64,000 nucleotides of DNA from Lamellibrachia columna (Eukaryota > Annelida > Polychaeta > Sabellida > Siboglinidae). The position numbers and the translations under genes are program-made. Shown here piece by piece: positions 1-64,000 of the stretch (its first letter is position 1; the number at the start of each line of letters is the position of its first letter). Below the pieces are notes generated by a model. That model was not told where the DNA came from and did no database searches. It saw nothing but the letters and a program-made list of their open reading frames with translations. The stretch lies in the NCBI GenBank assembly GCA_963662155.1, contig OY759273.1, positions 28,991,544 through 29,055,543 of the forward strand. Reading direction: 5' to 3'.

Positions 1-98
1 TTAATGAAGTCGTTTTCGCTCTTCTGCAGAATATCCAGCAGGTTGTTGCCGAGACGGTCTCGGTTCTTCTCCAGAAAGTTGCTCGCGTTGTACAGAAC
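1..98 (-). CDS. Gene B exon 12 (partial, cut by the window edge)
   Basis: Starts after TTTCTCAG in phase 0 and encodes [20 protein letters not shown] followed by [12 protein letters not shown]. This matches the myosin sequence VxYxxxGFLEKNRDxLxxdLxxLL. The exon continues left of the window. Confidence 0.92.
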
Positions 99-6000: not shown

Positions 6001-8195
6001 ATCCCGTACTCCCACCGATCACAACACTCTTGTAGCCATTACCTTCATCCCGTACTCCCACCGATCACAACACTCTTGTAGCCATTACCTTCATCCCGTA
6101 CTCCCACCGATCACAACACTCTTGTAGCCATTACCTTCATCCCGAACTCCCACTGATCACAACACTCTTATAGCCATTACTTTCATCCCGAACTCCCACT
6201 GATCACAACACTCTTGTAGCCATTACCTTCATTCCGTACTCCCGCCGATCACAACAATAACATCGTCACCGGTTCTTCCACACTTACATACAGTATTCTA
6301 AATAATCTAAAGATACAGTGACAGACGACACTGTGTATGAGATACAAATCACCATAGACAACCCCCATAGATAGAAAACCGCCATAGTACAAAAGGCACA
6401 TGCACGTAAAACCACCATGAATATTTTTAGTAAGCCATTGATTGATTTTAAGTAACCACTAATACGTTTAGCTGAATGTTTCACAAAAATTCAATGATGT
6501 CAAGACATTATAATACACCGTAGATGAATTATGATGTCAAGACATTGTAATACACCGTAGATGAATTATGATGTCAAGACATTATAATACACCGTTGATG
6601 AATTATTCATTTGAAGATCTAAAGTGACTGTGGTCAGTATGTAAATAACAGCTGTTGATCACTATGTTCGAAGTGAGCGATAATATACGATATCATCGTC
6701 ACGAGTCATGCTTGTACGGAATGGAAGCAGCGACTACATGTTCCCTCCACACTTTCTTGTTATACGCCAGCGAGGAGACCTCAGCTGGCGGAATACCTTC
6801 ATATCTGGCGAGAATGGTGGGTATGTAAGAGCTTTCCTTTCCCGCCCATCTTTACCACTACGAGGTTGCCAGAACACCAGCTTGGAGACATGCAATCGTC
6901 TCCCTAGTACTGTGGACAATGGTGGTAGGACTCCATATAGTTGGGAGTTTGTCATATGGTCCTGCCATCTGACACCAAACACGCGCCGCAGAAGTTGGGT
7001 GTAGCATCCATTGATCCGGTCTTCGGAGGTACTGGTTGAAATCCATGCTTCTGATCCGTACAGTAGGATGTTCTCAACACATGCATTGAAGAAGATGGCC
7101 AGTTTTATGCTGACTTCCACACTTTCTCCTAGTTTGTTGCAGGCAGTCTAGGCAGTCCTTTTCCTGAGCTTGAAGTCTTTCTCTAAGATTAATTATTAAA
7201 AGTGCCCATAACAGTATTTGATACACACCACAACAATGTACTACATCCGTCACGGTATGGGAATCATATACTACTTCCGTCGTTATGACCGACCTGTGAG
7301 CCATGGGGTCCTCCAGGTAGTAGTAGCGTAGAGTATCCTCGGGCATGCCGGCGAACATGTAGTAGAAGACGTGGAAGTTGCGCTCCTGGGGCCCGAGGTG
7401 AACCACACGGGACTTCTCCAGCAGGTAGTCATGGATGCACGCTGTAAAGCAAAGTTCTACTTAGCTACGACAAGCTAAATACAGTTATCATTGTGAATTA
7501 TGCATCAATTGCAGCAAATTTAAGGCATTTCCCCGTGGTCATGGTCAGATTTTCTTAGCTTTACGATTTATGTTAAAATTAACGGCCGACACGATATCGC
7601 GTATAAAAAATTGGTCGTGTAAACACCCACACGAGACCGATTAGCGAGGCCATTTATTGGTACAATCACGAAATCTTTGGCTTAATTTTTTATTTTATCG
7701 TATATAACCTGTTGCGCCACTGTGTGGTAGCATGGGAAACCTAATGGGTAACTAAGCTTGCCCCTAAGCTTTCCCCTTTGCGAGATCCTATATACGCCAC
7801 TAGTCATTATTAAACAATTGCTACGTTAGACAAGAAGAAGATTATCCCACGTATTAAAAAACGGTCGCAATTATACTTGGTATATTTAGTTGATAAATAT
7901 TCGCTGGTGAAGAGAACAGCTATTTGCGAAATAGCGACCAATAAATGCAGTCAACAAACACGTACCGCCTTTCATCTGTCCGTTTGGATTGAAGACCAGC
8001 TCGACAAACTTGCCGAATCGACTGGAATTGTGATTCATCACTGTTTGCGCGTTACCGAAGGCTTCCAACAGTGGGTTCACCTATATACAAACATGTGATG
8101 ACATAGTATTATCGTGAAACACAAATAATAATATTGAATAAATAAAACACGATTTTTAACAACAACATAAACAACACCAACACCAACACCAACAA

Positions 8196-8293
<98 letters not shown>

Positions 8294-11200
8294 ATAAAAC
8301 GCATAATTAACAATGTATTCGAGAGGCCATACACATGTAAGAACCTACATAGTGGTATTATTATGAATACACAATGTGTTGCATTGTTAACGAATTTGAA
8401 AACGCAAAACACCTTAAACACTTTAGATTGGATAAATTAATCGAAAACGGGTACATTCCAACAACGTCGGGAAAATAACGTCACATTGTTTTGGTAAATT
8501 TTCAAACATCCTCCAGTTGTCCCGATTTCCGAGAAAAAATACCTCCCACTTCTGTCGTATTTTATTTAAACGATTCGTTTTGTTGCTTTTTATGTTCTGG
8601 GCTTTATTTATCAAATAAATCAGAGCTCTTGAATGATTCTGGTAAAGAACATTCGGTAGGCGGCGCCACCAACGGAATTTCCCGCTACTTCATTAAATGC
8701 CCTCTTGAAAGGTCTGCTATTACTGCTCTTCGCATGAACGCATGAACGCACTCACTTTGACAATTCGTTCGTGCAGATTGGACATCGTGGACTGGCAGAT
8801 GTGCGTGAGATGTTTCACAACCAGCTTCGTCGATTCCGTTTTCCCGGCGCCGGATTCGCCGCTTATCAAAATGACTTGATTGGTGTGGGAGTCGCTCATT
8901 CGGCGATAGGCGTGATCAACTGTCCAGTAGATGTGTGGCTCAAGATCGCTGCGCTGATTCACATACTTGTACATCTCGTGAAACTGTAACAGGAGGATGC
9001 GTCGATGAATCTACCAGTTACAGATAAGTGAACGCACATTCACGGCGGCCATTTTGTACTGCAGCCATGACGCAGCGGGGAGATTGCTACTGCACTGCAT
9101 GTAAACATTAGGAGTGATACATGGCTTGAACATGTAAACATTAGGAGTGATACATGGATTGAACATGTAAACATTAGGAGTGATACATGGATTGAACATG
9201 TAAACATTAGGAGTGATACATGGATTGAACATGTAAACATTAGGAGTGATACATGGATTGAACATGTAAACATTAGGAGTGATACATGGCTTGAACATGT
9301 AAACATTAGGAGTGATACATGGATTGAACATGTAAACATTAGGAGTGATACATGGATTGAACATGTAAACATTAGGAGTGATACATGGATTGAACATGTA
9401 AACATTAGGAGTGATACATGGATTGAACATGTAAACATTAGGAGTGATACATGGATTGAACATGTAAACATTAGGAGTGATACATGGATTGAACATGTAA
9501 ACATTAGGAGTAATACATGGATTGAACATGTAAACATTAGGAGTGATACATGGGTTGAACATGTAAACATTAGCAGTGATACATGGATTGAACATGTAAA
9601 CATTAGGAGTGATGCATGGATTGAACATGTAAACATTAGGAGTGTAATAACTAATAAACTTACGACTACAAACTTAGAGCATCAAATAATTATCCGAAGT
9701 CTTCACAGTCTATGTCGCTTTATAGAAACGTGATAGAAAATAATTGTTATAAATTGTTAACAAACCGTTATATAAGTTATAAAAGGTTTGTTCCTTAAGA
9801 CAAAGTTTGTTTGTTTTTTATTTCAATTATTATATTGACAATGCATGTCTATGGGAATTCTTTCATAGTCGCGTGGTCATGCGTCTGATTTGCGATGCAT
9901 AATTATCATATTAGAATTGATTCCGACGTGACAATTATTATTTTATGGAATATGCCTATTATTACGATGTCAAGACCCGGTGTAGTAAGTTCAAAGCACT
10001 CACCCTCGAAAACACTACGATAGTGTTTTAAACGTAGGTTCAAAACACCACAGTGCCTAATTTCAAAACGGATCGGTTTTATCATAAAATCATAATAGTT
10101 TTATCATAAATTAATGTTATATAGTTTCATATTATTTTAGCATCTTGACCGTTCAAATGTGTTTTAATTGTGCTTGGGTGCAATTGATTGTTATTGATAT
10201 CGACCTATTTCCAACCTGAAAAGAAAGTGTTTAAGTGTTTGAAATATACTACAGCGGGGTTTTGAACGAAGAAATGTTTTGAATATCCTTCACCGGCGTG
10301 CGTTTTTAAATAACATTACTGTTACTTTTTTCAATTCAACAATATTATCCATAATAGAACTTTGTATTAATGTTTTTATAATATTTGTTTGGTCTATTTT
10401 GCGACCGAATCAGATCCAATCATATCACGAAATGCAATGTCTTGTGCACGGCAGTTGATTGTTTGATATGACCGGCAAAATACGATTTGTCTAAAATAGT
10501 AATTTGCATGTGTGAAAAGTGACCACTCACCCTTTCTCCGTATACATCCAATTTCTTATACGGGTTAATGACGATGAGCACATCGCCGATGTATGTCTGA
10601 AAATTATCGACATTAGAGAATAAGAATATGATATGACGAGAATAGTTGCAATACCGAAATTAACTGCTTCGATTTTTTTTTAAATAAAGACATTTACACT
10701 GATGTCGCACAATATTATCAATACAAACATTTGACAAAATATGCATAATTTGCTCAAATTTGCTAAAAGCGCTCAATTGCTTAGTTTTGTTTGAAAAAGC
10801 ATTAAAACAATGTGGTTTCATAACCAATCCAATGGTTTATGGGTGGTTGTTAAATTATAGAAAACAATCCATATTTGGTTGGGCATGTAACGAATGACTG
10901 ACATTTAAAACGATTCACCATAATTCCTAACAAGAGTGAAAGCCTGGAGATGGGATACTGACACGCCACCTAGTGAGAATATCAACATTTCACTTCAAGG
11001 TCACATGCTGGCCGTGTCAGACATTACCTGGATGACGTCATGCATGAAGCGCTCCTCCAACACGCGTAGAATGGACACCTCGTTCAAGTTTTCCATCACG
11101 GACAGGTCATGCTCTGTGTCGGGAGAACGAGACACTTGTCGTAGGTTCCCCTTCGATCTGCCAGCGAGCTGAGGTACGACGGGGGATGCATCCGTTGGGT

Positions 11201-18049: not shown

Positions 18050-18133
18050 GAGGAGCTTACCTGGTCACCAGGAGCTTACCTGGTCACCAGGAGCTTACCT
18101 GGTCACCAGGAGCTTACCTGGTCACCAGGAGCT
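18050..18133. repeat. Tandem repeat, 19-bp unit, 4-5 copies
   Basis: Perfect repeats of AGGAGCTTACCTGGTCACC. Intergenic. Confidence 0.97.
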
Positions 18134-24910: not shown

Positions 24911-25916
24911 ATGTCGTGGGCACAAGCTACTTTGCGACTCCGTACTCGAGGGCGTAATATACGACAGATGTCCTTGTAAGCTGTATACGTGTTACCAACT
25001 AGCGGCTTACCCATTACAATCATCCAACCGTTGAATGGCGCTCGTAAAATACTAATCATATACCTACTAATCATATCAACTAACCTCAATGTTTCGCAGC
25101 TATGAAATGTATCACATGTCAAGAAAACTGAGGAGACACGATTGTTTTGTCGAGTTGTATGTACCAAAGATGAAACGTGCACCGCAGTGTGTGTTAAACG
25201 ACACACCGCCTGGTCACTCACCGGCTGGTCACTCACCGCCTGGTCACTCACCGCCTGGTCACTTATCGCCTGGTCACTCACCGCCTGGTCACTCATTACC
25301 CGTCCGCAGGCGCAGATGGTAATGGTGATCCAACATACTATTTACCAAGAGGAAAACCCACGTGCAAGAAATCGATATTACCGACTTTGCAGTGAATGTT
25401 TGTATTCAGCGATGATCTCTCCTGAATTAGTTGGAAAAGTTAACGCGAGAACAACAGAAACTCAGGAAACTAAACTTAATACGGCAACAATTAAAAACAT
25501 TGTCAGCGTCCATTTTTGTAGAACAGTACGGACATTTCGAAAATCATGAACTGGATGACATGGCCGGTAGCCCTTTTTGGGGAACACAAAAGCTCCACTT
25601 TCTACAGAAGACGTCTGATGCACGTGTGCTAGCAGTAACAAGCCATTTAGAGACAGAAGAGGAAGTTCTTGCACTGGCGCGTTTATAACCAGTGATTTAT
25701 GATATTCTATTATTATTCCAGTAGAGGACGTTATGCTTGAAATGTCTGCGTTGCCGCCCGTAAAAGCATTCGTTCTATACCCTTTTTGTACGTTTTTGCA
25801 CATTTGAAATAAACCACTAAGTTGACGTTTATAAATGTACACAATGGGTCTGTTTCATGTTATACAGATGCAAATGTTTCAAATTTGACGGGTCAGTCGG
25901 CATCGGGGCTCGCTGT
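24911..25916. repeat. Direct repeat A flanking LINE unit B (left copy)
   Basis: Shares ordered blocks with 29546-30440: GGGCACAAGCTACTTTG, GACTCCGTACTCGAGGGC, TTTTGTCGAGTTGT and GCATTCGTTCTATACCC. It includes a 15-bp array (25208-25296) that has only one or two units in the right copy. Identity unknown; no conserved protein was found. Confidence 0.7.
25208..25296. repeat. Tandem repeat, 15-bp unit, about 6 copies
   Basis: Unit CGCCTGGTCACTCAC with single-base variants. Confidence 0.95.
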
Positions 25917-39400: not shown

Positions 39401-42400
39401 TAGGCGATGTAGAAGTAACTGATGTTGTCGTTCATCAGTACAGTGTTGTGACTGTTTGATAGCAGATCAATGACGTTCGCCATTGTGGACGGCGTCCATC
39501 GACGACGCTGGTTAAAGAACTCATTGAAACCCTCCGGGGCATACGTGAGGGCGTCCGACGCTGCGGTGTAGTCGACTCTGTATCCCTGCTGCAGCAATAG
39601 GGTGCACAGCCATCTGTCCTCACCTGAAAATTTTAAAGTTTTCAATGAAACTTGTCCTCTGTCACCAATGTGCACTGATTTACATTGCACTGGTTAAACT
39701 ATCCAAACATTCGTCATCTACACATTAGCTGCAAAGAAACAAATCAAGGATAAACTCAAGAACCAATTGAACATCAAATTAGAAAGAGATGGTGGAGCTG
39801 GATAGGCCATACTCTCAGAAAACCAACACATTATAAGACAGGCACTAACGTGGAACCCTCGGGGCAGTAGGAAAAAGCGGAGAAACACCTGATGCAGAAA
39901 ATGGAAGGAGAAATGGCAAAGGCAGGGTGTAGGTGGAAGCAACTGGAAAAGCAAGCCCAAAAACGGTTCTGGTGGAAAGTAGTCATTAATGTCCTATGCT
40001 CCGCCAGGGAGTGAAAACTAGATGTCTTCTAGTCATGTCAACCAGTGGTAGATAACGATTCTTTGAAAGTCTCCTATCTCCAAAAGGAACAAATAACCCC
40101 AAAAGTCGCATTTCTGTGAATTGCAATTATATGAACTATTTTCCTGGATATGGTGAGGTAAATGTTACAGTGTATATAGACGGATGGCATAAAAAAGTCA
40201 TGCAATTGTATCCAAGTGTTGTGTGGGAGCCAGCATTGGAAGTTTATTGTTAGGTGTGGGGCATGAACAGGTTATGCAATAATTGTACCCATGATGTTTT
40301 AACTTTTGGCATGGTACAAGGGGTACTAACATAATGGGACCATCCGTAGATGTTTATTAATTTTTATTGGCTAATGCTGACCTTGTGATGTGGTGGGAAA
40401 GTTACCAAGCGATGGGTATAAGCGCGAAGTAAAGTGTATTCAGGAGAGGGGCCTGGCAAGGCCTGGTATGATGAGTGCGCCGTTAATCACGAAGTTGCAA
40501 AACCCTCTACAACTTTGATCCCAGACAACACAATGCCACGTCGGTAATTACAGCGCATTGTTTGACTGTATGCGTTGACCATCTGCATCAGCCACATCTC
40601 ATTTTCTGCTACCTACTGACTGCTTGCGACTGTTCAGCTATCTTTCTGTGTATGACAACAGTGCGTCCACATGAGCCATCTTCATGGCACGTTCGTCGTC
40701 TCCATGTCATGTTGATGGCCGGCTTACAGAGCATACAGCCAACTGTTCAGCTGCCTTCCCCTTGCACGCGACACCAGTATGTCAGCATGAGACGTCAGCA
40801 TGACACGTTCACCGTCTCCACGACATACTGAAGGCTGGTCTACTGTGCATCTAGTTGACCGTTCAGCTGTCTTCTCTTCGTGCGACACCAGAGCGTCCGC
40901 GTCAGCCGTTGTCACGAAACATCGCTGTCTCCATGACCTATTGACATCCGGCCGACTGACGGCCACATCATGCAACTGACGGTCACATCAGTTATCAACC
41001 TACTCAACCCAGCAGATTAACGCGAAGGGTATTGTTGACTTTGTGTGTCATAGGATATGCTTTTGTTTTCGGAACATTGTGCAATATGTCTTTCTGCTTG
41101 TGACGGATTTCTTAACACTGATGTCTGTGCTACAGTTATGAAGGGGAATAGCCTCAACTGTGAATGTTAAAGTAAACATAGTTTTTGTTTGTTTTGAGGG
41201 TATTGCCAACCTGTTCTGGAGTTAGTTTCTTTATTTCATTTGTATAATTTTTAAATATGTTTTGATTCATTATAAACACTTTCATGTTTATTAACATGGT
41301 GTTGTCTCTCATTTGTGGAAAATTCATATACCCTCATATGTTGAGCTTAATTTAAGTACAGCCCGCCCCTAGTATTTGAGCCACTTTGCACGGACCTCCA
41401 CTGAAATCTGTGACAGTTAGTTTAACAAGAGATTCAACATGACTGCCATCCAAGGCAATGGCCCAGATGGCAAGTGGACAAGGAAGCCATTGGCTTATCA
41501 AGAGTCCAACAATGTTCATTTATGTATAACCTGCCCTCCTGAGATATGTGTCGACCTTGTTTTAAACGTATTCACGCTGCTAGCATTGCACAATCTGTAG
41601 AATTTTTTTTTCATTCATTTATTGTCCTCCCTGAGAATGTGTACTTCCTGATATCATTAATTTATTGTCCTCCGTGAGAATGAGTACTTCCTGATATCAT
41701 TAATTTATTGTCCTCCATGAGAATGAGTACTTTCCGACATCCATTCTATGCTGCTCCTTTACTAATGTTACCTCATATCCTCTAGTTCTACTATCTATCT
41801 TGAGTGAGAAAACAATATTTCTATCAATATTTTCATACCCATTCAATCTCTTAAAAATTTCAATTTGATATCTTCTTAACCGCCTTGTCTTTAGGGTTGT
41901 CAAACCGCATTCTTTTAGGCATTCTTCATAACTAAGGTCTCACAGTTCTGGAATCATTTCAGTTACTCTCCTCTGTATTCATTCAAGCGTATCTATATCC
42001 TACGTATGATATGGTCTCCAAGCTTGTACGGTAGTACCTAGAACAGTATCTCCCATTTTATAGTTTACATCCAAGTTCCCATGGCCTGTGTGTAGGCATT
42101 TACATTTCCCAAAATTTAATAACATCTGCCATTTTTCAAACCATTTAAATAATTTGTCTAGCATCTAGATCGTTTTGTAAATGTTGTTTAACACCATCAT
42201 TTTTAACTTTTCTAAACACTTTTGTGTCATCAGCAAATTTTAGTACGCTGCTTGTTATATTACCTTCCAAGTCATTGATTTATATTAAGAATAAAAAAGG
42301 TCCTAATACTGATCCTTGTGGTACCCCACTCAAAACTGATTTCCAGTTTGAATCCTCCCCATCTAATATAACGCACTGTCTTCTGTCAGTCAGCCATTGT

Positions 42401-45400
42401 TCTATCCAGTCGATTATGCCATCCCCGATGCCATATAGGCTTTTAAGTAGTAATCTTTGATGTGGCACTTTGTCAGAAGCTTTCTGAAAATCTAAGTAGA
42501 TAATATCTACTGGTGATACCTTGTCTATCCACTTAGTGATTTCTTCCAAAAAACATAACATATTTGTTAAGCATGACTTCGCTTTTAGGAATCCTTGTCC
42601 AGATGGATTTAATAATTTATGCCTACCAAGGAAATCCACCATATGGTCTTTAATTAACCTTTCTAATAATTTACAAATCACTGATGTTAAACTCACTGGT
42701 CTGAAATTCTCTGACTTATTTCTCAAACCCTCTTTAAATAATAGTATGATGTTTACTTCTTTCCATTCAAAAGGAACCATTCCCTCTTAAATAATTTTAA
42801 TGACAAGTTGAATACTCTTGCAAGTGGAATACTAATTTGTTCTACTGTTTCCATTGGTAGTTTTGGCGGAATACCATCCACTCCAGGTGATTTATTATCC
42901 TTCATTGCCTTTATTTTCTTAGCTAACATTTCAGGAGTTACAATTAACTGCCTAAATAGTCCAATTTAGCCTCATTGAATTTAGCATCTGGAACTAGTAA
43001 TGAACTAATACTCTGGTAAACACTGAACTGAAGTATCCATTTAGGTCTTCTCCAATTAAAAAACATTGTGATATGATATTTCCAGCACTGTCTTCTGGTG
43101 GTCCAACCTTGTCTCGGACGTTGTGTTTACTCCTAACATATGCATACAAACTTTTGCTGTAATTTTTTATGTTACATGCACATTTTTTTTCCATAGCTTT
43201 TAGATTTTCTAATTTCAATCATAGCTGCATTAACATGATTAAGTGCTTCTTTGTAATTTCTGTAGTCTTCATCCTTTCTGGCATGCTTATAAACCCTCCA
43301 CATAGTTTGCTTATACATTATTTTTTTAATAACTTTCCATTGTATGTGACCGTGGTTAAAATCTCCGATTATGATACATTCCCCTTCACTCATTTTATAT
43401 ATTGTTTTATATTTTTATGTTATCCTCTTTGTTTATTTTTGGACATCAGTAAACTAATCCAATAGTTAACGTTGAATTTCCTGTAACTATATTGCATCAA
43501 ACAGCTTCATCGCAATCTGGTTCCCTTTCTAAGTCTTTTTTGTAAGCCTGAATAGATTCTTTAATATAATTAATATAGTAAAATAACTCTCCCTCCCCTT
43601 CTTCCTATTTGATCTCTCATAAACAAACACTGTCAGTCCTAATTCAACATCTGCTATGTCTTTGTTGGCCCATGATTCGGTTATACCAATTATACGAGGG
43701 TCAATATCTTCTACCATGTTTAGGTTTTCTTATTTACTATGCTCCTTGCATTTAAATGCACACATTTATAACCAGCTTCAGAAATGTTTTCCGGACATTT
43801 TGTTACTGGTTTGTGTGTACAAGTGGCCTCTTATCCTGCTTGAGGCACCTCTAAGTAACCCACCTGTGTTTCTAGTTTAAACAGTGTTGGTGCTCTTACC
43901 TTGATCATACTGCAGGAAGTGAACGGCTTCGGTGGGTCTGGCAGTGTATCGCTTCATGACGTTGTCGTCAAGCAGGGCTGAACCACGGAACAGACTGAAA
44001 CAGCCAGGACTACAGAGCACGCATCCCAGCACATGCTCCGTCGACTTCTGGAACCAATGTCCGATCGCATACTCAAACACCTGGTACCAAACCATTGGAC
44101 CTACAAACACACGCGGCAGCTGGATTGTAATAATTATTATTTTGGTTCCTTTATAGTGCATATTCCTGTACTAGGCAGATCAATGTTTTACAAAAAAAAT
44201 AATACATAAATAAAAATGCACATAATTATGCTTATAATTCTTATAATTATCACAAATATATATATTACATATTGTTATAAAAAAATCTACCGGTGGTTAA
44301 AATATAGTATACTTGATCACATATTAAAATAATATAATAATTATATTTAATATTGTTCAATTAAAGAAAATATGTTAAAATTTGATATTGTAAAACGATT
44401 GTAGCAACTTATTAGTGCCACTGGTCTTAAAATAATTGGTGGGTATTGAGTGTTCATTTAAACATCTGCAGCCTGCAGGTCCTTACAGACGTGCACAGTA
44501 ACAGGCAGCCTTCTTGTACCTTGCAGCCTGCAGGTCCTTACAGACGTGCACAGTAACAGGCAGCCTTCTTGTACCTTGCAGCCTGCAGGTCCTTACAGAC
44601 GTGCACAGTAACAGGCAGCCTTCTTGTACCTTGCAGCCTGCAGGTCCTTACAGACGTGCACAGTAACAGGCAGCCTTCTTGTACCTTGCAGCCTGCAGGT
44701 CCTTACAGACGTGCACAGTAACAGGCAGCCTTCTTGTACCTTGCAGCCTGCAGGTCCTTACAGACGTGCACAGTAACAGGCAGCCTTCTTGTACCTTGCA
44801 GCCTGCAGGTCCTTACAGACGTGCACAGTAACAGGCAGCCTTCTTGTACCTTGCAGCAACGGGCCATGAATAATTGAATGTCAGGGTTTCACAAGGCCAG
44901 ATTTCTGAATGATACAGTTTCCAAAAAGGTTTCTCAACAAAGCAACCGTTTCAGTAATTCCCTATTGGATTTAATTTGGCAAGGATATAAAAGAAAATTG
45001 CAGAAGCAAGCTTTATTAATAAGGTTGCTGGGATGGCTAACGTGTCAGATGATTTTTTTCATAATAATAGCTTGGAAATACAGTCAAATACTGAACTGAA
45101 CGTCGCCATCACAAATACATTGCAGTATGATGCCAACCTAAATTAACTTGTTCGATGCCTACCCATATTAACTTGTTCTTAATCTGTGGTTAAGTTAGTT
45201 TATTCTGCAGTTGATGCTGTAAATGAACCCGCCTGTAGCTGTAATCTGGTGATCCGGCCCCATAACGGGTCAATCAAATGATCTTGTGCACATGTAAACA
45301 ACTAACTATGGGCCCCACACTGGGCTGGCATAATCCGATCTTGATAGACGCCAAACACATAACAAATGCAAGTTGAAGCGCTATGTGATGCAAGATTAAC

Positions 45401-51400: not shown

Positions 51401-54400
51401 CATTTCTATTTGACATAGCCCTACCTGCTCCAATAGGATGGATACGTCCACACGCGGCGCCGGTCTTGCAATTCTTCCTCATTCTGTCGACAAGAAGACG
51501 GACAGCATCCGGCTTGAAATCAACATCACCATCGAGGGCCAGCACAAACGTGTTCTCCGCCTGAGGAAAATAACATCAAACCACATATCTGCACATGCAC
51601 TAATCCTAACGATTAATTCAGCCGCCTCTCGTACACCAACAGGAGCCTATCAAATCAGGGTAGTAATTTGAAAGCATGACTTATGCTAATGAAAATTATT
51701 AAATGGCTAGGCCTTCTGATAATTTATATGGAAGCTGCTCTATATATATATATGTATGTGCATGCGTGCTTCTGTTCATGCGCACATATGTAAAAAAATA
51801 CACCAAAAGGGGTCCCTGGCTGATGGAAGGACATAGGTTGACAGCATAGGGTTGAACATTTTTTACCGTTCCTTAATTTTTCATTGATTAATTGATATGG
51901 AGCAAGATGGGGGCATAATAAAAATGCCCACATTCTCTTAACTTTTTCTATATCAAAGTATCTAATTTAACAATGTTTTAATCTTTATTGTTCTAGTATA
52001 TTTACTTGACCGACCAATAAATAATTAGATGTTAAAAGTTATATTTCACCTCTAAAGATGAAGATTCATTGGTCTGCTAATAACTGCTGAGAATTTTTTT
52101 TTATATATATATCTTATAAGAGGGGCATATTTTATTTCCAAAGCGTCTATTTTTTAAAAAGATTTAACAAGATTTGCCATCCAAGCCAAAGGCCCAGATG
52201 GCAAGTGGACAAGGAAGCCATTGGCTTATTGAGAGTCCAACAATGTTCATCTACTTATAACCCGCCCTCCTGAGATATGTGTCAACTTTGTTTTTAAACA
52301 TATTCACGCTGCTAGCAGTTACACAATCTGTAGACAATTTGTGATATGTTCTAAAATATTAAGAAACCTGCACGCCAGCACAAACACACAGAATTTGGTC
52401 TTGTAAGACAGGCAAGGTATAATGAAGAACTGTAAATCTGCCCCACTACATGGCACATACCTTGGTAACAAGGGCTTCAGTGAGTTTATGAAAGATGAGA
52501 CCTTTGGCAAAGTGGTCTGATCCAATGAGCCGCTTCCTTGCGTCATCAATGCTCTCCTTCCTCCTCTGTGGGCCCTGTGTCGCTCCAGCCTCAGTCTCTG
52601 CCTCATCCATGCCATCCGGGGCGTCTTTAAAGATGTCTCCATCACTCACTCCAAACAGCTTGTAGCCCAGTAGATAGTACATGTACATTACCTGCAAGGA
52701 ATATTTATTAATGGAATATAATTATTTCCGACATGCTGACTATGTCAGGCCGTGCGTTGGATGACTGCATGTCAGACGGCCGTGTGTGGGACGGTCGCAT
52801 CGATTGGTTGCACGTCAGACAGCTGCATGTCAGACGACTGCATGCCAAATATGTGGACACCACTAAAATTTAATTGGGCAGGCAGACCTGAAATCCCAGC
52901 AGTATTTGGCACTAGTACCCACATTGGGGTAATAGCCTTCGGGTCCTTGCCAGTTACCATACAGATATTTAACAAGATTTAACAACATTGTGACCCAAGG
53001 CAAAGGCCCAGATGACAAGTGGACAAGGAAGCCATTGGCTTGCCGAGAGTCCAACATTTTTCTATCTATGTGTAACACGCCCTCCTGAGATATGTGTCAA
53101 CCTTGTTTTTAAACATATTCATGCTGTAGATGTGTCAACCTTGTTTTTAAACATATTCATGCTGTAGATAACTTGTTCCATTCATTTATTGTCCTCTGTG
53201 AGAACGAGTACTTCCTGATATCTAATCTACACAGGCCCTTTACTAATATTGTTACTTCATGTCGTCTAGTTCTAGTATCTTTCTTGAATGAGAAAACAAT
53301 ATTTCTATCAAAGTTTTCATACCCATTCAATATCTTGAAAACTTCAATCTGATCTCCTCTTAACCTCCTCATCTCTAGGGTTATTAAACCACATTCTTTT
53401 AGGTGTTCATAGAATCCAATGTAGACATTCTCAACACACCTGTGACCAACGTTTCAGATGTCGGATCTTAGTCTTGTCCTTAAGGTGAGTAACTAAGGGT
53501 GTTCCGCCTGGCAGGATCCATGTCAGTCGGCCGCCGTAGGGTGTCGAGATGACTTCGGGTTGGCGCAGCATCACCTGTTGTCCAATCACAGAACTGCAAT
53601 GACGAAATACTTTTGTTAGATTTTTGCTATTTTGGGCAACGTATCTTGAAGCACAACTTTGGCTAAATGTATGTTACATGTACTTACGAATTGCACCGTA
53701 CTTACAGTTATTGGCTGGCATGGGGCGATTAACGTCATTTACTTTATAACTTGCAGACACCCCACATGGATAGGATTTATTTTTTTATTGCATAGACTAA
53801 TGCAATTGTTTTAGCCCAAACTGTAGAGTTGATCTTACTGAGTAACAAATATATTGAAATTTTTTCTGCCAGACCCCATTTCATTCTTTATCTATGAATA
53901 AGGGATTTAGAGGTATGGAATTGCTAAAAGTGAACTTTATAGATAGTAAATATACAAAGCTATCAGAATACAGTGGAAATACATTTTGAGTAAAAAAAAA
54001 AACCATTTCACCTAGGATGTCTCCCCTTAATCCACGGTGAACTAACTCTATGCTTAATCTAGTAAATCAGTTGCCCAATGCACGACTACCACAATGTATG
54101 AATAGGAGAATATGAGCCTCCGTAATAGTAATTATGTGTTTCTAGGAATTGATGCTAGCCACAATGTATTCAGTTACTGACACTGTTTTACATTACAAGA
54201 CTGGACATGTTCCACAAGGGAAACAAATATGCTACAAAACAAACATGTTGTACAAGGCAAACATATGTGCTACAAAACAAACATGTTGTACAAGGCAAAC
54301 ATATGTGCTACAAAACAAACATGTTGTACAAGGCAAACATGTGCTACAAAACAAACATGTTGTACAAGGCAAACAAATGTGCTACAAGAAAAACATATGC

Positions 54401-57400
54401 TGCAAGAAACATATTTGCAGTGGTGACTGAATTACTTTAATTTTGTACTTGAGTAAAACTAATTCACCTCAAAAGTACTTGAGTAAAAGTACTTTGTAAA
54501 AACGTATGAGTAAAAAGCAAAACTACTTTTCAAAAGTAAATGAAGTAAAAGTAGAAGTAAAAGTACACTTAGAAATAACAACAAAGCCATGAGTGCTATT
54601 ATATAGATTACACAGCCTGCATCTGGCAACTGTTTTGCTACCACTCTGCTTGTTCCCACACAGCCTTAGCTGGTCATTTGGAAGTAAGACATTCCCCCCG
54701 GATGTTTCCCCATGGTCATCCCTCCCAGACATTCCCCCGGATGTTTCCCCATGGTCATCCCTCCCAGACATTTCCCCCAGGACGTTCCCCCCACTAAAAT
54801 GAAAAGGTGGACATTTCCCCTTTTTTTGTAGTTTAAGTAATAATTAATTAGTTTATCATTTAAATACTTTTATTGCAAACGTGAAGGACACAACCTCTAA
54901 GTCTGGACTGAACGGCAGTAATACTGGCTGTTAAGTCTGGACTGAACGGCAGTAATACTGGCTGTTAAGTCTGGACTGAACGGCAGTAATACTGGCTGTT
55001 AAGTCTGGACTGAACGGCAGTAATACTGGCTGTTAAGTCTGGACTGAACGGCAGTAATACTGGCTGTTAAGTCTGGACTGAACGGCAGTAATACTGGCTG
55101 TTAAGTCTGGACTGAACGGCAGTAATACTGGCTGTTAAGTCTGGACTGAACGGCAGTAATACTGGCTGTTAAGTCTGGACTGAACGGCAGTAATACTGGA
55201 TGTTAAGAGGGTTAAAGGAGGACAAGACCCTACTGAAATGCTTCATTTTAATGCAGTTAAGAAAAGACCCTGCCTTGCCCCACCTTGCAGAAACCCTTTG
55301 CAAATAGCAGTTGACTTCATTTAGTGTTGAAGTCACATCATGATAATCATTCCTTCTATGTGATTGTGACATCTCATATGAAGGAAAGAAAGCACATAAT
55401 AATTATAGCATAATAATTAGTAACAAAATGTATTAACATTAATTCTATCACGGTTGTTTAAATTTTTTATTATAACATCTCTCCTAACATAAAGAGTGGG
55501 GAAAAGCAATAATAATATGAATTTAGGACATCGTGTAATAATAGGAAATAAGTTAAAAAAAATAATTTTTTCACTCCATATATATTTACTAATATTAATT
55601 AATTAGTTAAGAAATAAATTCATTATGTTATATTGATATACTGTCCATGTGTTTGTTGATTCTGAGTCCGAATAAAGATAATAATATATATCTCCTAATA
55701 TAAACAGGGGAGGAAAACAATTATTTTACATCTCTCTCCTAATGTGGGGGGGGGGAAACGTCCGCCTTTTCATTTCAGTGGGGGGAAACGTCCAGGGGAA
55801 TATCCGGGGGTGGGGGGAATGTCCATAAGGGATATGACCAAAAGTCCTCTAGGTCAAAAACCCCTTAGGTCAGAAGCCCCTTTGGTCAAAAGCCCTCGCA
55901 TCTTATATATATATTCATCTGACATTTTGCCCTTGGGTCAAAAGCCCTGTTATTAAATATTGTGTCGAATAGCTACAATGCAGTGTCATGAACAGAAACA
56001 TTTTGATTTACCAACATTTATTTCCATGGAGTATATTGAACATGATAAGTACATTCATGTTCATGAGTTGATTCAAATAATAGTCATTCACATTCATGTT
56101 CATTCAGTACAACTACATAGCATTTGCTTGAAGTGACATTTTATGTCAACAGCCTTGACCTGACCTATGACAATATTTGATAGACTTCGTTAATATATAA
56201 AACAGTGGTTGTGTCGATTTCCCAGAGTGGCTTGTATGCAAATATGATTGCATACTGGCTTGAGATTGGATAATATTAATAGCTTTTAGCCTGGCGACAG
56301 GATCCCCCGGCGATTAGGCATGGTGTTTGAAATGTTGTTGATGGGCGGAGCACCAACAGCAGCACCACCACCAGCACCACCAGCAGCACCACCAGCAGCA
56401 GCACCAACAGCAGCACCAACAGCACCACCATCAGCACCACCACCACCAGCAGCACCACCACCAGCAGCAGCACCACCACCAGTGGTTTTGACAAAAAATT
56501 AACAAAAATATATCACGAAGTAAATAAAAGTAATGAAGTAAAAAGTTGTGTTACTTTAGATAAAACTACTTTGTTACAAGTAAAAGTACTAAAATTTCAA
56601 CTTCGTTACATGCCAATTACTTTGAATAACTACTCAAGTATAGTAACAAAGTACTTTTGCTTTGTTACACGATACCACTGCATACCTGTCATATGGCAAA
56701 CATGCGTTAGAAGACAAACAAACAAAGGTTCTACAAGATAGACATACAAAGCAAACAAAAGTAGACAAACACATGGTTCATACAAAGAACATTGTTAGGC
56801 TTGGCAGCTTCATTGATGCACTCACAGAAGTCAAAGACCATTGCTAGACCCACCTGGCAGCTTCATTGATGCACTCACAGAAGTCAGAGACCATTGCTAG
56901 ACCCACCTGGCAGCTTCATTGATGCACTCACAGAAGTCACAGACCATTGCTGGATCCACCTGGCAGCTTCATTGATGCACTCACAGAAGTCAGAGACCAT
57001 TGCTAGACCCACCTGGCAGCTTCATTGATGCACTCACAGAAGTCAGAGACCATTGCTAGACCCACCTGGCAGCTTCATTGATGCACTCACAGAAGTCACA
57101 GACCATTGCTGGATCCACCTGGTGGCTTCATTGATGCACTCACAGAAGTCATAGATCATTGCTAGACCCACCTGGCAGCTTCATTGATGCACTCACAGAA
57201 GTCATAGATTATTGCTAGACCCACCTGGCAGCCTCATTGATGCACTCACAGAAGTCATAGATCATTGCTAGACCCACCTGGCAGCTTCATTGATGCACTC
57301 ACAGAATTCATAGATCATTGCTAGACCCACCTGGCAGCCTCATTGATGCACTCACAGAAGTCATAGATCATTGCTAGACCCACCTGGCAGCTTCATTGAT

Positions 57401-58016
57401 GCACTCACAGAAGTCATAGATCATTGCTAGACCCACCTGGCAGCTTCATTGATGCACTCACAGAAGTCATAGATTATTGCTAGACCCACCTGGCAGCCTC
57501 ATTGATGCACTCACAGAAGTCATAGATCATTGCTAGACCCACCTGGCAGCTTCATTGATGCACTCACAGAAGTCATAGACCATTGCTAGACCCACCTGGC
57601 AGCCTCATTGATGCACTCACAGAAGTCATAGATCATTGCTAGACCCACCTGGCAGCTTCATTGATGCACTCACAGAATTCATAGATCATTGCTAGACCCA
57701 CCTGGCAGCCTCATTGATGCACTCACAGAATTCATAGACCATTGCTAGACCCACCTGGCAGCCTCATTGATGCACTCACAGAAGTCATAGACCATTGCTA
57801 GACCCACCTGGCAGCCTCATTGATGCACTCACAGAAGTCATAGATCATTGCTAGACCCACCTGGCAGCCTCATTGATGCACTCACAGAAGTCAGAGACCA
57901 TTGCTAGACCCACCTGGCAGCCTCATTGATGCAATCACAGAAGTCCTGCACAAAGCTGTTGGGCACTCGATTCTCATCATCGTCCATCTCCATGGCATCG
58001 TCAAAGAAGATGTGGG
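36156..58016 (-). CDS. Chitin synthase (GT2, metazoan type), gene A, 5' truncated by window edge
   Basis: Spliced gene; exons (5' to 3'): 58016-57914, 53593-53440, 52691-52461, 51560-51425, 44100-43900, 39623-37991, 37494-37176, 36467-36156. All seven junctions keep phase, giving about 1028 residues and a TGA at 36156-36158. The enzyme transfers GlcNAc from UDP-GlcNAc to a growing chitin chain across the plasma membrane. Family signatures occur in order: LALDGDVDF (donor site), VWYQVFEYAIGHWFQKSTEH and CSPGCFSLFR, GEDRWLCT (catalytic EDR), FNQRRRW (chain-binding QRRRW), then a block of membrane segments and SWGTRE. A cytosolic Lys/Glu stretch, two more membrane segments and a His/Arg-rich tail follow. 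The N-terminal membrane block, and any myosin head, lie right of 64000. A possible AATAAA lies at 35711-35716 (minus strand). Confidence 0.95.
37176..37494 (-). CDS. Gene A exon g: C-terminal cytosolic region
   Basis: A 319-base exon, phase 2 in. The acceptor CCATGCAG is good. It encodes SDDEVIYTDMTLDGATGGDR, a region with IDRRLQAREQECEGFG and LKRPGAYDWRHRYTDNPISQ. The proposed donor AAG|GTTGGC at 37175-37174 is weak. Without splicing, the frame stops at 37152-37154 after eight more residues, giving an alternative C-terminus. Confidence 0.78.
37991..39623 (-). CDS. Gene A exon f: EDR/QRRRW active-site motifs, transmembrane block and SWGTRE
   Basis: A 1633-base exon, phase 1 in and 2 out (AG|GTGTGA). 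It opens with GEDRWLCTLL and reaches EGFNEFFNQRRRWTPSTMAN within about 50 residues, so both catalytic motifs are complete. Several hydrophobic helices follow, for example FGLMVATVLGPATVILAIA, then SNMNVVSWGTREVAKKK. A Lys/Glu low-complexity cytosolic stretch and a Pro/Gln/Glu-rich linker precede two further membrane helices (FAFWLINGLWVLFNYML and FVFMIFFMFVLVLQLIGM). Reading on past the donor would meet a stop within four codons, so either splicing or a short alternative end is possible. Confidence 0.96.
39725..40022 (+). pseudogene. RTE-like LINE tail
   Basis: Translation in several frames gives RRWWSWIGHTLRKPTH, AKAGCRWKQLEKQAQKRFWW and VINVLCSARE, the RTE C-terminus. It lies in the intron between gene A exons e and f, opposite to the gene's direction. 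Confidence 0.8.
40632..40970. repeat. Diverged tandem repeat, about 115-bp unit, 3 copies
   Basis: Each unit has GTTCAGCT(A/G)(T/C)CTT, a CGACACCAG-like word, GCACGTTC/CACGTTCACCGTCTCC and a GGCCGGCT/AGGCTGGT word. Intron of gene A. Confidence 0.6.
41430..43860 (-). pseudogene. CR1-like LINE, endonuclease to 3' end, degenerate
   Basis: Minus-strand pieces occur in order. Endonuclease remnants at 43529-43717 (IDPRIIGITESWANKDIADV) and 43172-43393 (ECIIIGDFNH). Reverse transcriptase at 42280-42780 (ENFRPVSLTSVICKLLERLI, PVDIIYLDFQKASDKVPHQR, SGVPQGSVLGPFLFLI). C-terminus at 41700-41903 (YQIEIFKRLNGYENIDRNIV). Frameshifts and stops break it, and the YxDD box was not found. It lies in a gene A intron on the gene's own strand. 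Its tail, containing CCAGATGGCAAGTGGACAAG, recurs at 52160 and 52970. Confidence 0.88.
43900..44100 (-). CDS. Gene A exon e: acceptor-side core motif
   Basis: A 201-base exon, phase 1 in and out (G|GTAAGA). It encodes GPMVWYQVFEYAIGHWFQKS, EHVLGCVLCSPGCFSLFRGS, then RPTEAVHFLQYDQ. These are among the most conserved motifs of animal chitin synthases. A CR1-like LINE starts about 40 bases downstream of the donor. Confidence 0.97.
44467..44857. repeat. Minisatellite, 55-bp unit, 7 copies
   Basis: Unit TTGCAGCCTGCAGGTCCTTA, then CAGACGTGCACAGTAACAGG, then CAGCCTTCTTGTACC. Copies appear identical. It ends about 360 bases upstream of the gene A exon e acceptor. Confidence 0.98.
44880..47240. other. 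Intron sequence, AT-rich, no recognisable gene
   Basis: Part of the large intron between gene A exons d and e. A 26-bp direct duplication occurs at about 46437-46485. A block near 46070-46165 (TTGGATGAAATCGTCTAA, TTGACCTGGCCCAGTTG) resembles 36597-36660, hinting at a shared repeat. Confidence 0.5.
47247..47404. repeat. Minisatellite, 23-bp unit, about 7 copies
   Basis: Unit TATTCAATCTAATAAGTGTA followed by TTG, with CAACCT variants. Intron of gene A. Confidence 0.96.
47980..48361 (+). other. Unassigned open frame
   Basis: A frame of about 125 codons without an ATG at its opening (an ATG at 47979 is in another frame and stops after 12 codons). It includes SVLVTVPEQSVAAVSSTSF and SNRDATVLLPTAGIPCTGP. 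No family recognised. It lies antisense inside a gene A intron. A decayed element seems more likely than a gene. Confidence 0.2.
49831..50016 (+). other. Unassigned acidic open frame
   Basis: An ATG-initiated 61-codon frame: MDTDSGSIFDSYSDISDDEN, then YELHTVLSMLDDASLPDFYF. The 75 bases upstream also read acidic (DESLSDIDD-like) in another frame. Acidic N-termini of this kind occur in some transposase-derived proteins, but no catalytic domain follows, so this is a guess. Confidence 0.2.
50272..51108. repeat. Minisatellite, 40-bp unit, about 21 copies
   Basis: Unit GTACCACATTCAACCATAAT followed by GGCAGTGGAATAACAACATA. The first few copies carry CAACGATA/CAATGATA variants and the rest are near-identical. 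It ends about 320 bases downstream of the gene A exon d donor. Confidence 0.98.
51425..51560 (-). CDS. Gene A exon d: nucleotide-sugar binding motif
   Basis: A 136-base exon, phase 0 in and 1 out (G|GTAGGG). It encodes AENTFVLALDGDVDFKPDAV, then RMRKNCKTGAACGRIHPIGA. DGDVDF holds the aspartates that bind UDP-GlcNAc and metal in GT2 enzymes; both are intact. Confidence 0.97.
52160..52350 (-). mobile_element. CR1-like LINE 3'-end fragment
   Basis: Nearly matches 41430-41600: CCCAGATGGCAAGTGGACAA, GGAAGCCATTGGCTTAT, CGCCCTCCTGAGATATGTGT. It sits just after gene A exon c on the gene's strand. Confidence 0.8.
52461..52691 (-). CDS. Gene A exon c
   Basis: A 231-base, phase 0-0 exon from CTTGCAG to AAG|GTATGT. 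It encodes VMYMYYLLGYKLFG, an acidic and charged loop, and FAKGLIFHKLTEALVTK. VMYMYYLLG continues directly from KRWSQ of the previous exon. The loop (GDIFKDAPDG, then a Glu-rich insert) is the most divergent part. Confidence 0.95.
52970..53415 (-). pseudogene. CR1-like LINE 3' fragment between gene A exons b and c
   Basis: The minus-strand frame RRLRGDQIEVFKILNGYENF, then YSFSQRTINEWNKLSTA, leads into the tail with GATGACAAGTGGACAAGG. A 35-bp piece (GTGTCAACCTTGTTTTTAAA region) is duplicated at 53093-53165. The insert ends about 25 bases from the exon b donor. Confidence 0.85.
53440..53593 (-). CDS. Gene A exon b: start of GT2 core
   Basis: A 154-base exon, phase 2 in and 0 out. It encodes VISTPYGGRLTWILPGGTPL, then THLKDKTKIRHLKRWSQ. 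The TPYGGRLxWxLPG and HLKDKxKIRHxKRWSQ motifs are highly conserved in animal chitin synthases. A LINE 3' fragment (52970-53415) ends only about 25 bases from its donor. Confidence 0.95.
54228..54400. repeat. Minisatellite, 38-bp unit, 4-5 copies
   Basis: Unit ACATGTTGTACAAGGCAAAC followed by ATATGTGCTACAAAACAA. Related words (GGCAAACATGCG, AGACAAACAAAC) continue at 56690-56790 on the other side of the hAT element, so the element landed in this repeat. Confidence 0.9.
54690..55830. mobile_element. Inverted structure nested in the hAT element
   Basis: CCCCCCACTAAAATGAAAAG with GTGGACATTTCCCC near 54787-54822 is mirrored by CTTTTCATTTCAGTGGGGGG near 55765-55785. GGACATTCCCCC-type words flank both sides. 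No target duplication could be defined. Confidence 0.55.
54901..55206. repeat. Minisatellite, 34-bp unit, 9 copies
   Basis: Unit GTCTGGACTGAACGGCAGTA followed by ATACTGGCTGTTAA. Essentially perfect; the last copy reads GGATGTTAA. Confidence 0.98.
56345..56485. repeat. CAGCACCAC-type microsatellite
   Basis: Interleaved CAG, CAC and ACA triplets over about 140 bases. Coding-looking poly-Ala/Pro frames are repeat artefacts. Confidence 0.95.
56801..57934. repeat. 53-bp minisatellite made from an exon-intron boundary, 21 copies plus the parent
   Basis: Read on the minus strand, each unit holds about 32 bases of the end of gene A exon a (GACTTCTGTGAGTGCATCAA, then TGAGGCTGCCAG) and 21 bases of its intron (GTGGGTCTAGCAATGATCTA, then T). 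The exon itself (ending 57914) is the rightmost copy, differing by GATTGC for GAGTGC. Each unit therefore carries a donor CCAG|GTGGGT. Variants (GTCAGAGACC, GTCACAGACC, GAATTCATAG) are shared among groups of copies. Confidence 0.96.
57914..58016 (-). CDS. Gene A exon a (first visible): cytosolic region before the catalytic core
   Basis: A 103-base exon, phase 1 in and 2 out, from TCTCACAG to GCCAG|GTGGGT. It encodes HIFFDDAMEMDDDENRVPNS, then VQDFCDCINEAA. Chitin synthases have the same HIFFDDA segment just before the catalytic domain. Its 3' boundary has been copied 21 times in tandem just downstream (see the 53-bp array). Confidence 0.9.
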
Positions 58017-62756: not shown

Positions 62757-62772
62757 TTAGCAGAGTTATACA

Positions 62773-64000
62773 ATGAATACAATTGACAGCTGCTATGGAT
62801 GGAAAAGAGAGGACCGAATCATTGAATCGTTCGTGATTCAAGATCAAAGGATTGACTTAGAAATTGATACAGGGGCAACTGTTTCTGTAATCAGTGAGAA
62901 CACTTACCGTCAATTGAAGAACAGTACAGTGTTAAAGAAGACACAAACGATTCTGAGAACATACTCGGGCGAGAAAATCATTCCTATGGGTGTGATAGAT
63001 GTCTCGGTGAATTACCAAAATTGGGAGCATGTGTTACCATTGTTGGTAATTTCTGGAGGACCAAATCTCTTGGGTAGAAACTGGCTGCGTGAAATTCGGC
63101 TAAACTGGCGGGATATTCAAGCCAAGTTACACAATGTGTCATCGACAAATCAGTCGGCACTAAATGATGTTCTACAACGTTATGAACACGTTTTCAACGA
63201 TGAACTTGGTGCACTTAAAGGAATAAAAGCGTCAATACACTTGAAAGATGATGCCACACCAGTGTTCATGCGAAGTAGACCAGTTCCATATGCTCTTCTT
63301 AAGGGAATTGAAGCTGAACTGGAGAGGCTGGAAAACGAGGGTACAATTAAGCCAGTTGAATTATCCGACTGGGCTACGCCGATCGTACCAATCGTGAAAT
63401 CGGATTCTTCTGTGAGAATTTGTGGAGATTACAAACTCACAGTGAACAAGGCTAGTCGAATGGATTCCTATCCAATTCCGAAGGTGGATGAACTTTTCGC
63501 GAAGTTAGCGGGAGGACAGAAATATTCAGAACTCGATTTAAGCCATGCTTACGAGCAAATACTACTGGATGAGTCATCATGTGAATGTGTGACAATCAAC
63601 ACACATCGTGGTTTGTTCCAGTATCAGAGATTGCCATATGGAGTTTCTTCGTCTCCTGGAATATTCCAGAGAATAATGGAATGTCTTTTCCAAGGAATGA
63701 CAGACGTGGCTCCATACTTGGATAATGTCATCATTACAGAGAAAGATGATGAGGAACATTTGAAGAATTTGGCTCTCGTGTTAGAGAAAATATCTCAGGC
63801 TGGATTGCGCCTGAAGAGAAGCAAATGTCAATTCATGAAGGAGCAAATGGTTGTCCTGGGACATGTTCTCAGTGGTAAAGGAATACAACCTTGTAAGGCA
63901 AAGGTAGAAACTATTCAGAATGCCCCAGCCCCGACTAACGTAACAGAATTGAGAGCCTATTTAGGTCTCATAAATTATTATCACAGATATCTACGAAACC
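62773..64000 (+). CDS. Ty3/Gypsy pol (protease and reverse transcriptase), runs off the window
   Basis: Open from ATG 62773 to the window end, in the +1 frame relative to gag; an in-frame TAG at 62758 lies just upstream. Protease motif LEIDTGATVSVIS comes first, then LLGRNWLREI. Reverse-transcriptase motifs follow: ELSDWATPIVPIVKSD, RICGDYKLTVNKAS, YSELDLSHAYEQILLD, LPYGVSSSPGIFQRIM. The catalytic box reads YLDN (63715-63726) where YLDD is expected. Then LVLEKISQAGLRLKRSKCQF and LRAYLGLINYYHRYL, leading toward RNase H. One essential aspartate is missing, so this copy is probably inactive. Confidence 0.92.
   Translation, partial: MNTIDSCYGWKREDRIIESFVIQDQRIDLEIDTGATVSVISENTYRQLKNSTVLKKTQTILRTYSGEKIIPMGVIDVSVNYQNWEHVLPLLVISGGPNLLGRNWLREIRLNWRDIQAKLHNVSSTNQSALNDVLQRYEHVFNDELGALKGIKASIHLKDDATPVFMRSRPVPYALLKGIEAELERLENEGTIKPVELSDWATPIVPIVKSDSSVRICGDYKLTVNKASRMDSYPIPKVDELFAKLAGGQKYSELDLSHAYEQILLDESSCECVTINTHRGLFQYQRLPYGVSSSPGIFQRIMECLFQGMTDVAPYLDNVIITEKDDEEHLKNLALVLEKISQAGLRLKRSKCQFMKEQMVVLGHVLSGKGIQPCKAKVETIQNAPAPTNVTELRAYLGLINYYHRYLRN

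Follow-up and report, generated by a model that had tools for sequence, protein, structure and literature searches.

Tandem repeats of exon-intron boundaries, known as mirages, have been described in lancelets, where they repeat either a donor or an acceptor and where many of the copies keep the AG or GT (PMC3087553, PMC3902484). They occur in Adh3, troponin C, the globins BflGb6 and BflGb9, and PGBD5; their units measure 10-72 bp in Adh3 and 150-160 bp in the globins, and the edge units escape homogenization (PMC3087553, PMC3902484). Lancelet mirages are said to splice normally (PMC3087553). In the human interferon-induced gene IFI6 (6-16, G1P3) the units of a minisatellite act as splice donors beside an exon, and with two downstream repeats in use, three mRNA species arise (PMC4526556); Turri 1995 appears by title in reference lists as the account of this multiple-donor minisatellite (PMC4526556, PMC2572611). 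In human paralogues, internal tandem repeats at exon-intron boundaries have been associated with new introns and with alternative transcripts (PMC2812944). Intronic minisatellites are reported from an earthworm, together with duplicated copies of a fourth exon that the transcript does not contain (PMC12783039), and an intronic minisatellite from an abalone (PMC6905558); the accessible text of neither report describes a repeated junction. A literature search, mostly of papers available without subscription, found no junction-repeat case in an annelid or mollusc.

The preliminary description of the locus analyzed here held that few cases are known in which an exon-intron junction is the minisatellite unit; the lancelet mirages and the IFI6 donor minisatellite are precedents. 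Judged by its sequence, the array at this locus is a known kind of oddity, a mirage, and its structure has the mirage features that were tested.

A chitin synthase gene and its 53-bp array

The window, a 64-kb stretch of DNA to which all coordinates refer unless a locus is named, carries on its minus strand an animal chitin synthase gene, here called gene A. Its exons were placed by eye via family motifs and by homology, from genomic DNA and not from cDNA. Exon a (58016-57914) follows the acceptor CACAG|CC and ends with GCCAG in phase 2. It is followed by intron a/b (53594..57913, 4320 bp), of which the array is the first 1.1 kb, and then, all on the minus strand, by exons b (53593-53440), c (52691-52461), d (51560-51425), e (44100-43900) and f (39623-37978), the last running to the stop codon. 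The joined product of these six exons is 822 residues long and in frame, with GT/AG at all five introns, and matches PF03142 (Pfam Chitin_synth_2) at 4.3e-35. Remains of a LINE-like reverse transcriptase lie within intron 5 (42283-42786, minus strand). At the high end of the window, positions 62761-63999 of the plus strand hold a gypsy-like retroelement fragment in which a protease and reverse transcriptase frame is open; its best match from a named organism has 66% identity among the matches listed.

The 5' part of gene A is outside the window, and similar blocks are found upstream in L009, L010 and L053. The L053 block is at the position that corresponds, by similarity, to the myosin head in protein P0124. 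A second gene on the minus strand (1-10659), downstream of gene A and in tandem with it, yields, with L041 and L042, myosin-head pieces; at C13:28.97 Mb it appears to run on into a chitin synthase. Going by these similarities, gene A and its neighbor each appear to carry a myosin head. Among animals, chitin synthases fused to a myosin motor are described for lophotrochozoans (PMC3942024).

The best protein matches of gene A have 79-80% identity, and those from named organisms at most 57%, among the matches listed. A 48-row protein tree groups gene A with four proteins, two from Platynereis and two from Dimorphilus (support 100/99); branch order inside this set of five is open and one Dimorphilus row is long. 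The highest identity of gene A in this tree is to Lingula. The remaining annelid rows (Capitella, Osedax and three from Owenia) are placed elsewhere, as expected for an old multigene family. The same Platynereis/Dimorphilus set is recovered in a 40-row tree with five further relatives (98/94). Both trees were built without cephalochordate sequences, and Branchiostoma is not named among the matches listed for three protein searches, from whose collection lancelets may be absent. A lancelet host is disfavored by the trees and by the myosin head that seems to belong to gene A. Unlike that of the cephalochordate mirages, the host here is placed by its protein sequence as probably a spiralian and probably an annelid; should it be an annelid, mirages would not be peculiar to lancelets.

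As in lancelet mirages, the units are of minisatellite size: TRF reports a 53-bp array at 56802-57945 with 21.6 copies, 96% matches and a score of 2022. The unit also extends across an exon-intron boundary and directly adjoins its parent exon, which was assigned by homology. Alignment in register with the parent (57945-57893, minus strand) bears out the preliminary description, according to which the unit consists of the last 32 exon bases and the first 21 intron bases. The authentic donor GT is at 57913-57912, exon a ends CCAG|GTGGGT, and the array begins at the exon end without a gap. The parent is followed by 20 full 53-bp copies (56833..57892, minus strand) that all have CCAG|GT, 18 as GTGGGT and two as GTGGAT (57118 and 56959), and that comprise ten distinct unit sequences. 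Beyond them is a distal edge copy (56783..56832, low end approximate, minus strand) that has lost its donor (CCAAGCC, about four bases missing) and continues into unique intron. There are thus 20 downstream donors and not the 21 previously counted; CCAG|GT occurs 21 times only when the authentic site is included (19 GTGGGT and two GTGGAT). Here too the likeness to lancelet mirages holds, since the splice signal survives in many copies without being universal (GT in 20 of 21 downstream).

The inner units are alike and the distal edge is diverged, again as in the lancelet arrays. Differences from the consensus, counted in fixed register, number 0-6 in the inner copies, four in the parent unit and 15 in the edge copy; the exon-side edge retains its donor and the distal edge copy lacks one. 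The last 32 bases of the exon are identical to the inner copies at 28 to 31 of 32 positions, with one difference in 7 of 20 units and two to four in the other 13. The exonic part of the edge copy matches the unit consensus at 31 of 32 positions and the exon at 29 (three differences). At one position the exon alone has GTGATTGC and all 21 later copies have GTGAGTGC. The mean difference between inner units is 1.9-2.1 at lags 1-3 and reaches 3.2 at lags 11-12, an increase with distance that is expected under local exchange or slippage. Because tandem expansion leaves the original intron distally, the distal edge is probably where the old intron resumes. A 128-base query against the 879.7-Mb genome (30 contigs) found matches in this array only (21 of 21, a number that, as a repeat count, is a lower bound).

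Strength, reading frame and conservation of the decoy donors

Fifty-three is not a multiple of three, as had been pointed out, and the predicted premature stop upon decoy use holds for the four decoys tried, the first to the fourth. Exon a extended by one, two, three or four units (156 to 315 nt) reads Arg-Trp-Val-stop each time, with the stop in the first unit. The TAG occupies intron positions +8 to +10; five bases, and not the six first described, separate it from the GT. In IFI6 the repeat donors are used and give three mRNAs, whereas use of the gene A decoys tried would give a stop.

Duplex energies were calculated with what we take to be the 5' end of U1. The authentic exon a donor and its exact decoys score -11.4 kcal/mol and the GTGGAT decoys -7.6; the five authentic donors of the gene in the window range from -7.7 to -11.4, and that of exon a is the strongest. 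A site scan with a donor weight matrix, which we assume to be adequate, finds 18 sites at least as strong as the weakest authentic donor of the gene in the 1133 bp of array versus two in the 16,430 bp that make up the rest of introns 1 to 5 (none in the 3186 bp remaining of intron a/b and two in the 13,244 bp of introns 2-5). Since most decoys equal the authentic site, site strength cannot account for the presumed silence of the decoys, and position and exon context must decide the choice. With 18 exact and two altered decoy donors behind one exon, the locus offers a clean natural experiment on splice-site choice. A second donor-like site in each copy, TCT|GTGAGT (GTGATT in the exon), was rejected as weak (U1 duplex -6.6).

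Diversity among the 20 inner copies is 0.021 in the donor, a value that 17 of 53 equal-length blocks match or undercut, versus 0.054 in the rest of the unit; across these copies the donor 9-mer has no excess conservation relative to other stretches of the unit and gives no sign of selection. The lower diversity of the exonic part (0.030 versus 0.076) was likewise discarded as a sign of selection, 9 of 53 circular blocks being as low or lower. RNA structure that hides the decoys receives no support, because exon a with the rest of its unit and three further units folds worse than its shuffles (z +3.78), 200 of 200 of which fold at least as well. A coding function of the array was rejected: the longest open stretch is 52 codons on the plus strand and 45 on the minus strand, with 17 to 36 stops per frame. 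A search against Rfam gave no match at the gathering threshold.

Junction arrays in the sister genes

The protein core of gene A has 33 matches in the genome, which we grouped into seven chitin synthase genes. A search for exon a succeeded in four paralogues (L041, L043, L045 and L049) and failed in the other two chitin synthase genes. The homologous exon is followed by AG|GT in all four, and none has an array at that junction. Like the human boundary repeats, gene A shows a minisatellite expansion at a boundary in a duplicated gene; unlike those, which are linked with novel introns, its intron position is common to four paralogues.

The survey covered 192,520 bp over parts of the seven genes and compared 88 coding blocks (176 edges, approximate because BLAST similarity defined them) with 109 non-redundant arrays; whether an array spans a junction was judged by inspection. 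Eight arrays repeat a splice junction, in six of the seven genes, seven of them besides gene A and in five other genes. Donors are repeated in the 53-bp array of gene A, in L047 (2283-2355, 20-25 bp x 3) and twice in L052, at 1164-1490 (38 bp x 8.6, with seven CAGGGTGGGT including the authentic site) and at 3458-5090 (49 bp x 33.3). The latter is longer than the gene A array and contains 33 CAGGTACGT including the authentic site. These 33 sites and the 20 decoy donors of gene A, both counted in the DNA of one assembly, set the two arrays apart from the lancelet mirages. Acceptors are repeated in L043 (7355-7448, 31 bp x 3), in L046 (5124-5209, 29 bp x 3, AG kept in one of two upstream copies), in L050 (3364-3535, 29 bp x 5.9, with three upstream CTGCAG|GTTGT and further copies degenerate) and in L051 (1451-2102, 74 bp x 8.8). 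The L051 array has nine CAG|GTTGTTCG sites, eight of them upstream, and about 55 bases of its unit are exonic.

The junction arrays of the family thus contain up to 32 exact decoy donors or eight decoy acceptors, and the exon-touching copy has an intact site in 8 of 8. Two junctions, the exon e donor and the acceptor of the exon beginning LFV, were each struck in two genes with different units. Not every decoy is destructive, because a decoy three units away in the L051 array leaves the frame open. The parts fetched of the gene next door to gene A contain no junction-spanning array.

Four candidates were not counted: L047 4189-4309 abuts an acceptor and its copies are without AG, L043 9259-9699 and L044 3356-3544 are near a junction that they do not repeat, and L010 3503-3607 (36 bp) is degenerate with a probable donor. 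That all eight periods are not multiples of three (chance about 0.04) was not relied on; TRF calls one of them 25 or 20.

Random seeds of one unit length predict 1.8 to 3.0 junction arrays versus the seven observed besides gene A (P 0.0025 to 0.034), with thresholds set after the data were seen and edges approximate. For these reasons, and as the survey covered the chitin synthase family alone, the excess is a hint; random placement may fall short as a full account. For gene A taken alone, 0.255 junction arrays are expected from 17 arrays (P 0.225), and its junction array is not surprising.

Origin and possible roles of the array

The array is probably a neutral junction-spanning minisatellite, a mirage in intron a/b that arose as a by-product of frequent minisatellite birth. 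Of the two possibilities raised in the preliminary description, the best fit is the second, in which the first donor always wins and the array persists for that reason. A 53-bp segment over the exon end and intron start would have been duplicated in tandem and the array then expanded, presumably through unequal exchange or slippage. Because it preserves the protein and adjoins the whole exon, the exon-adjacent donor is proposed as the one used; the 20 downstream donors would be removed with the intron. The copies would be alike because they were homogenized, not because they were selected. The genome produces many minisatellites, some of which begin on a splice junction. This account starts from what was observed, namely how the array is built, the stop codons, a decayed edge copy and the recurrence in sister genes. 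Neutrality is supported by the lost distal donor, by a donor 9-mer that is not extra-conserved and by the absence of the array at four paralogue junctions. By analogy, human IFI6, whose repeat donors can be used, would speak against silent decoys.

The same IFI6 case (PMC4526556) lends some weight to a splicing rheostat, in which use of a downstream donor leads to a premature stop and mRNA decay and in which the output of chitin synthase is tuned by the number of copies or by the level of splicing factors. Eighteen downstream donors are identical to the authentic one over CCAGGTGGGT, and the stop on decoy use is immediate. Such a role is nevertheless unlikely, as the donors give no sign of selection, the edge copy has lost its own, all four paralogues in which this junction was seen lack the array there, and lancelet mirages are reported to be without effect on splicing (PMC3087553). 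The array could instead act on U1 snRNP, its unspliced donor motifs binding the particle and so preventing premature polyadenylation or retaining the transcript on chromatin. This idea draws on work on U1 telescripting. It would be in keeping with 18 strong donor-like sites in 1.1 kb versus two in 16.4 kb of other gene A intron, and with seven AATAAA/ATTAAA hexamers in the rest of intron a/b (2.2 per kb, above the 1.09 of intron 4 and the 1.31 of the whole minus strand of the window). These hexamers are denser, however, in the array-free introns 2, 3 and 5 (4.0, 3.3 and 4.0 per kb), and the acceptor arrays of the sister genes cannot act in this way, which leaves the proposal very improbable.

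Little credence can be given to a role as regulatory DNA, with the array as an evenly spaced cluster of transcription-factor sites, each unit having a CAGGTG/CACCTG word that we take to be an E-box. Although 21 of the 38 CACCTG words on the plus strand of the window fall in the array, the word is inherent in the donor, and the other junction arrays of the family have different units. Tandem arrays are error-prone in assembly, and reads might have been wrongly expanded at a smaller tandem duplication; the ten distinct unit sequences among 20 copies, the diverged edge copy and the position of the array on a 49.9-Mb contig of a 30-contig assembly make such an artefact highly unlikely.

Beyond the neutral origin favored for gene A, it is possible, if doubtful, that splice junctions are preferred sites of minisatellite birth or survival in the host lineage, the exon-adjacent site presumably being used. 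If so, the spliceosome would pick sites by exon context and not by their sequence, and the family would offer a natural series for testing this. Eight arrays in one family let one ask about the rate of birth, the tolerance conferred by a first-site-wins rule and a role in intron gain. Such arrays may also trip gene predictors and short-read assemblies.

Donor-like sites were seen elsewhere in the window. The acceptor of exon f (39623) reads CAG|GTGAGG, with a strong donor-like site directly after it. On the minus strand, a 19-bp array at 18051-18133, where no exon is shown, has 4.4 identical units with CAG|GTAAGC four times, and a 15-bp array at 25204-25295 has the donor-like site GTGAGT four times.
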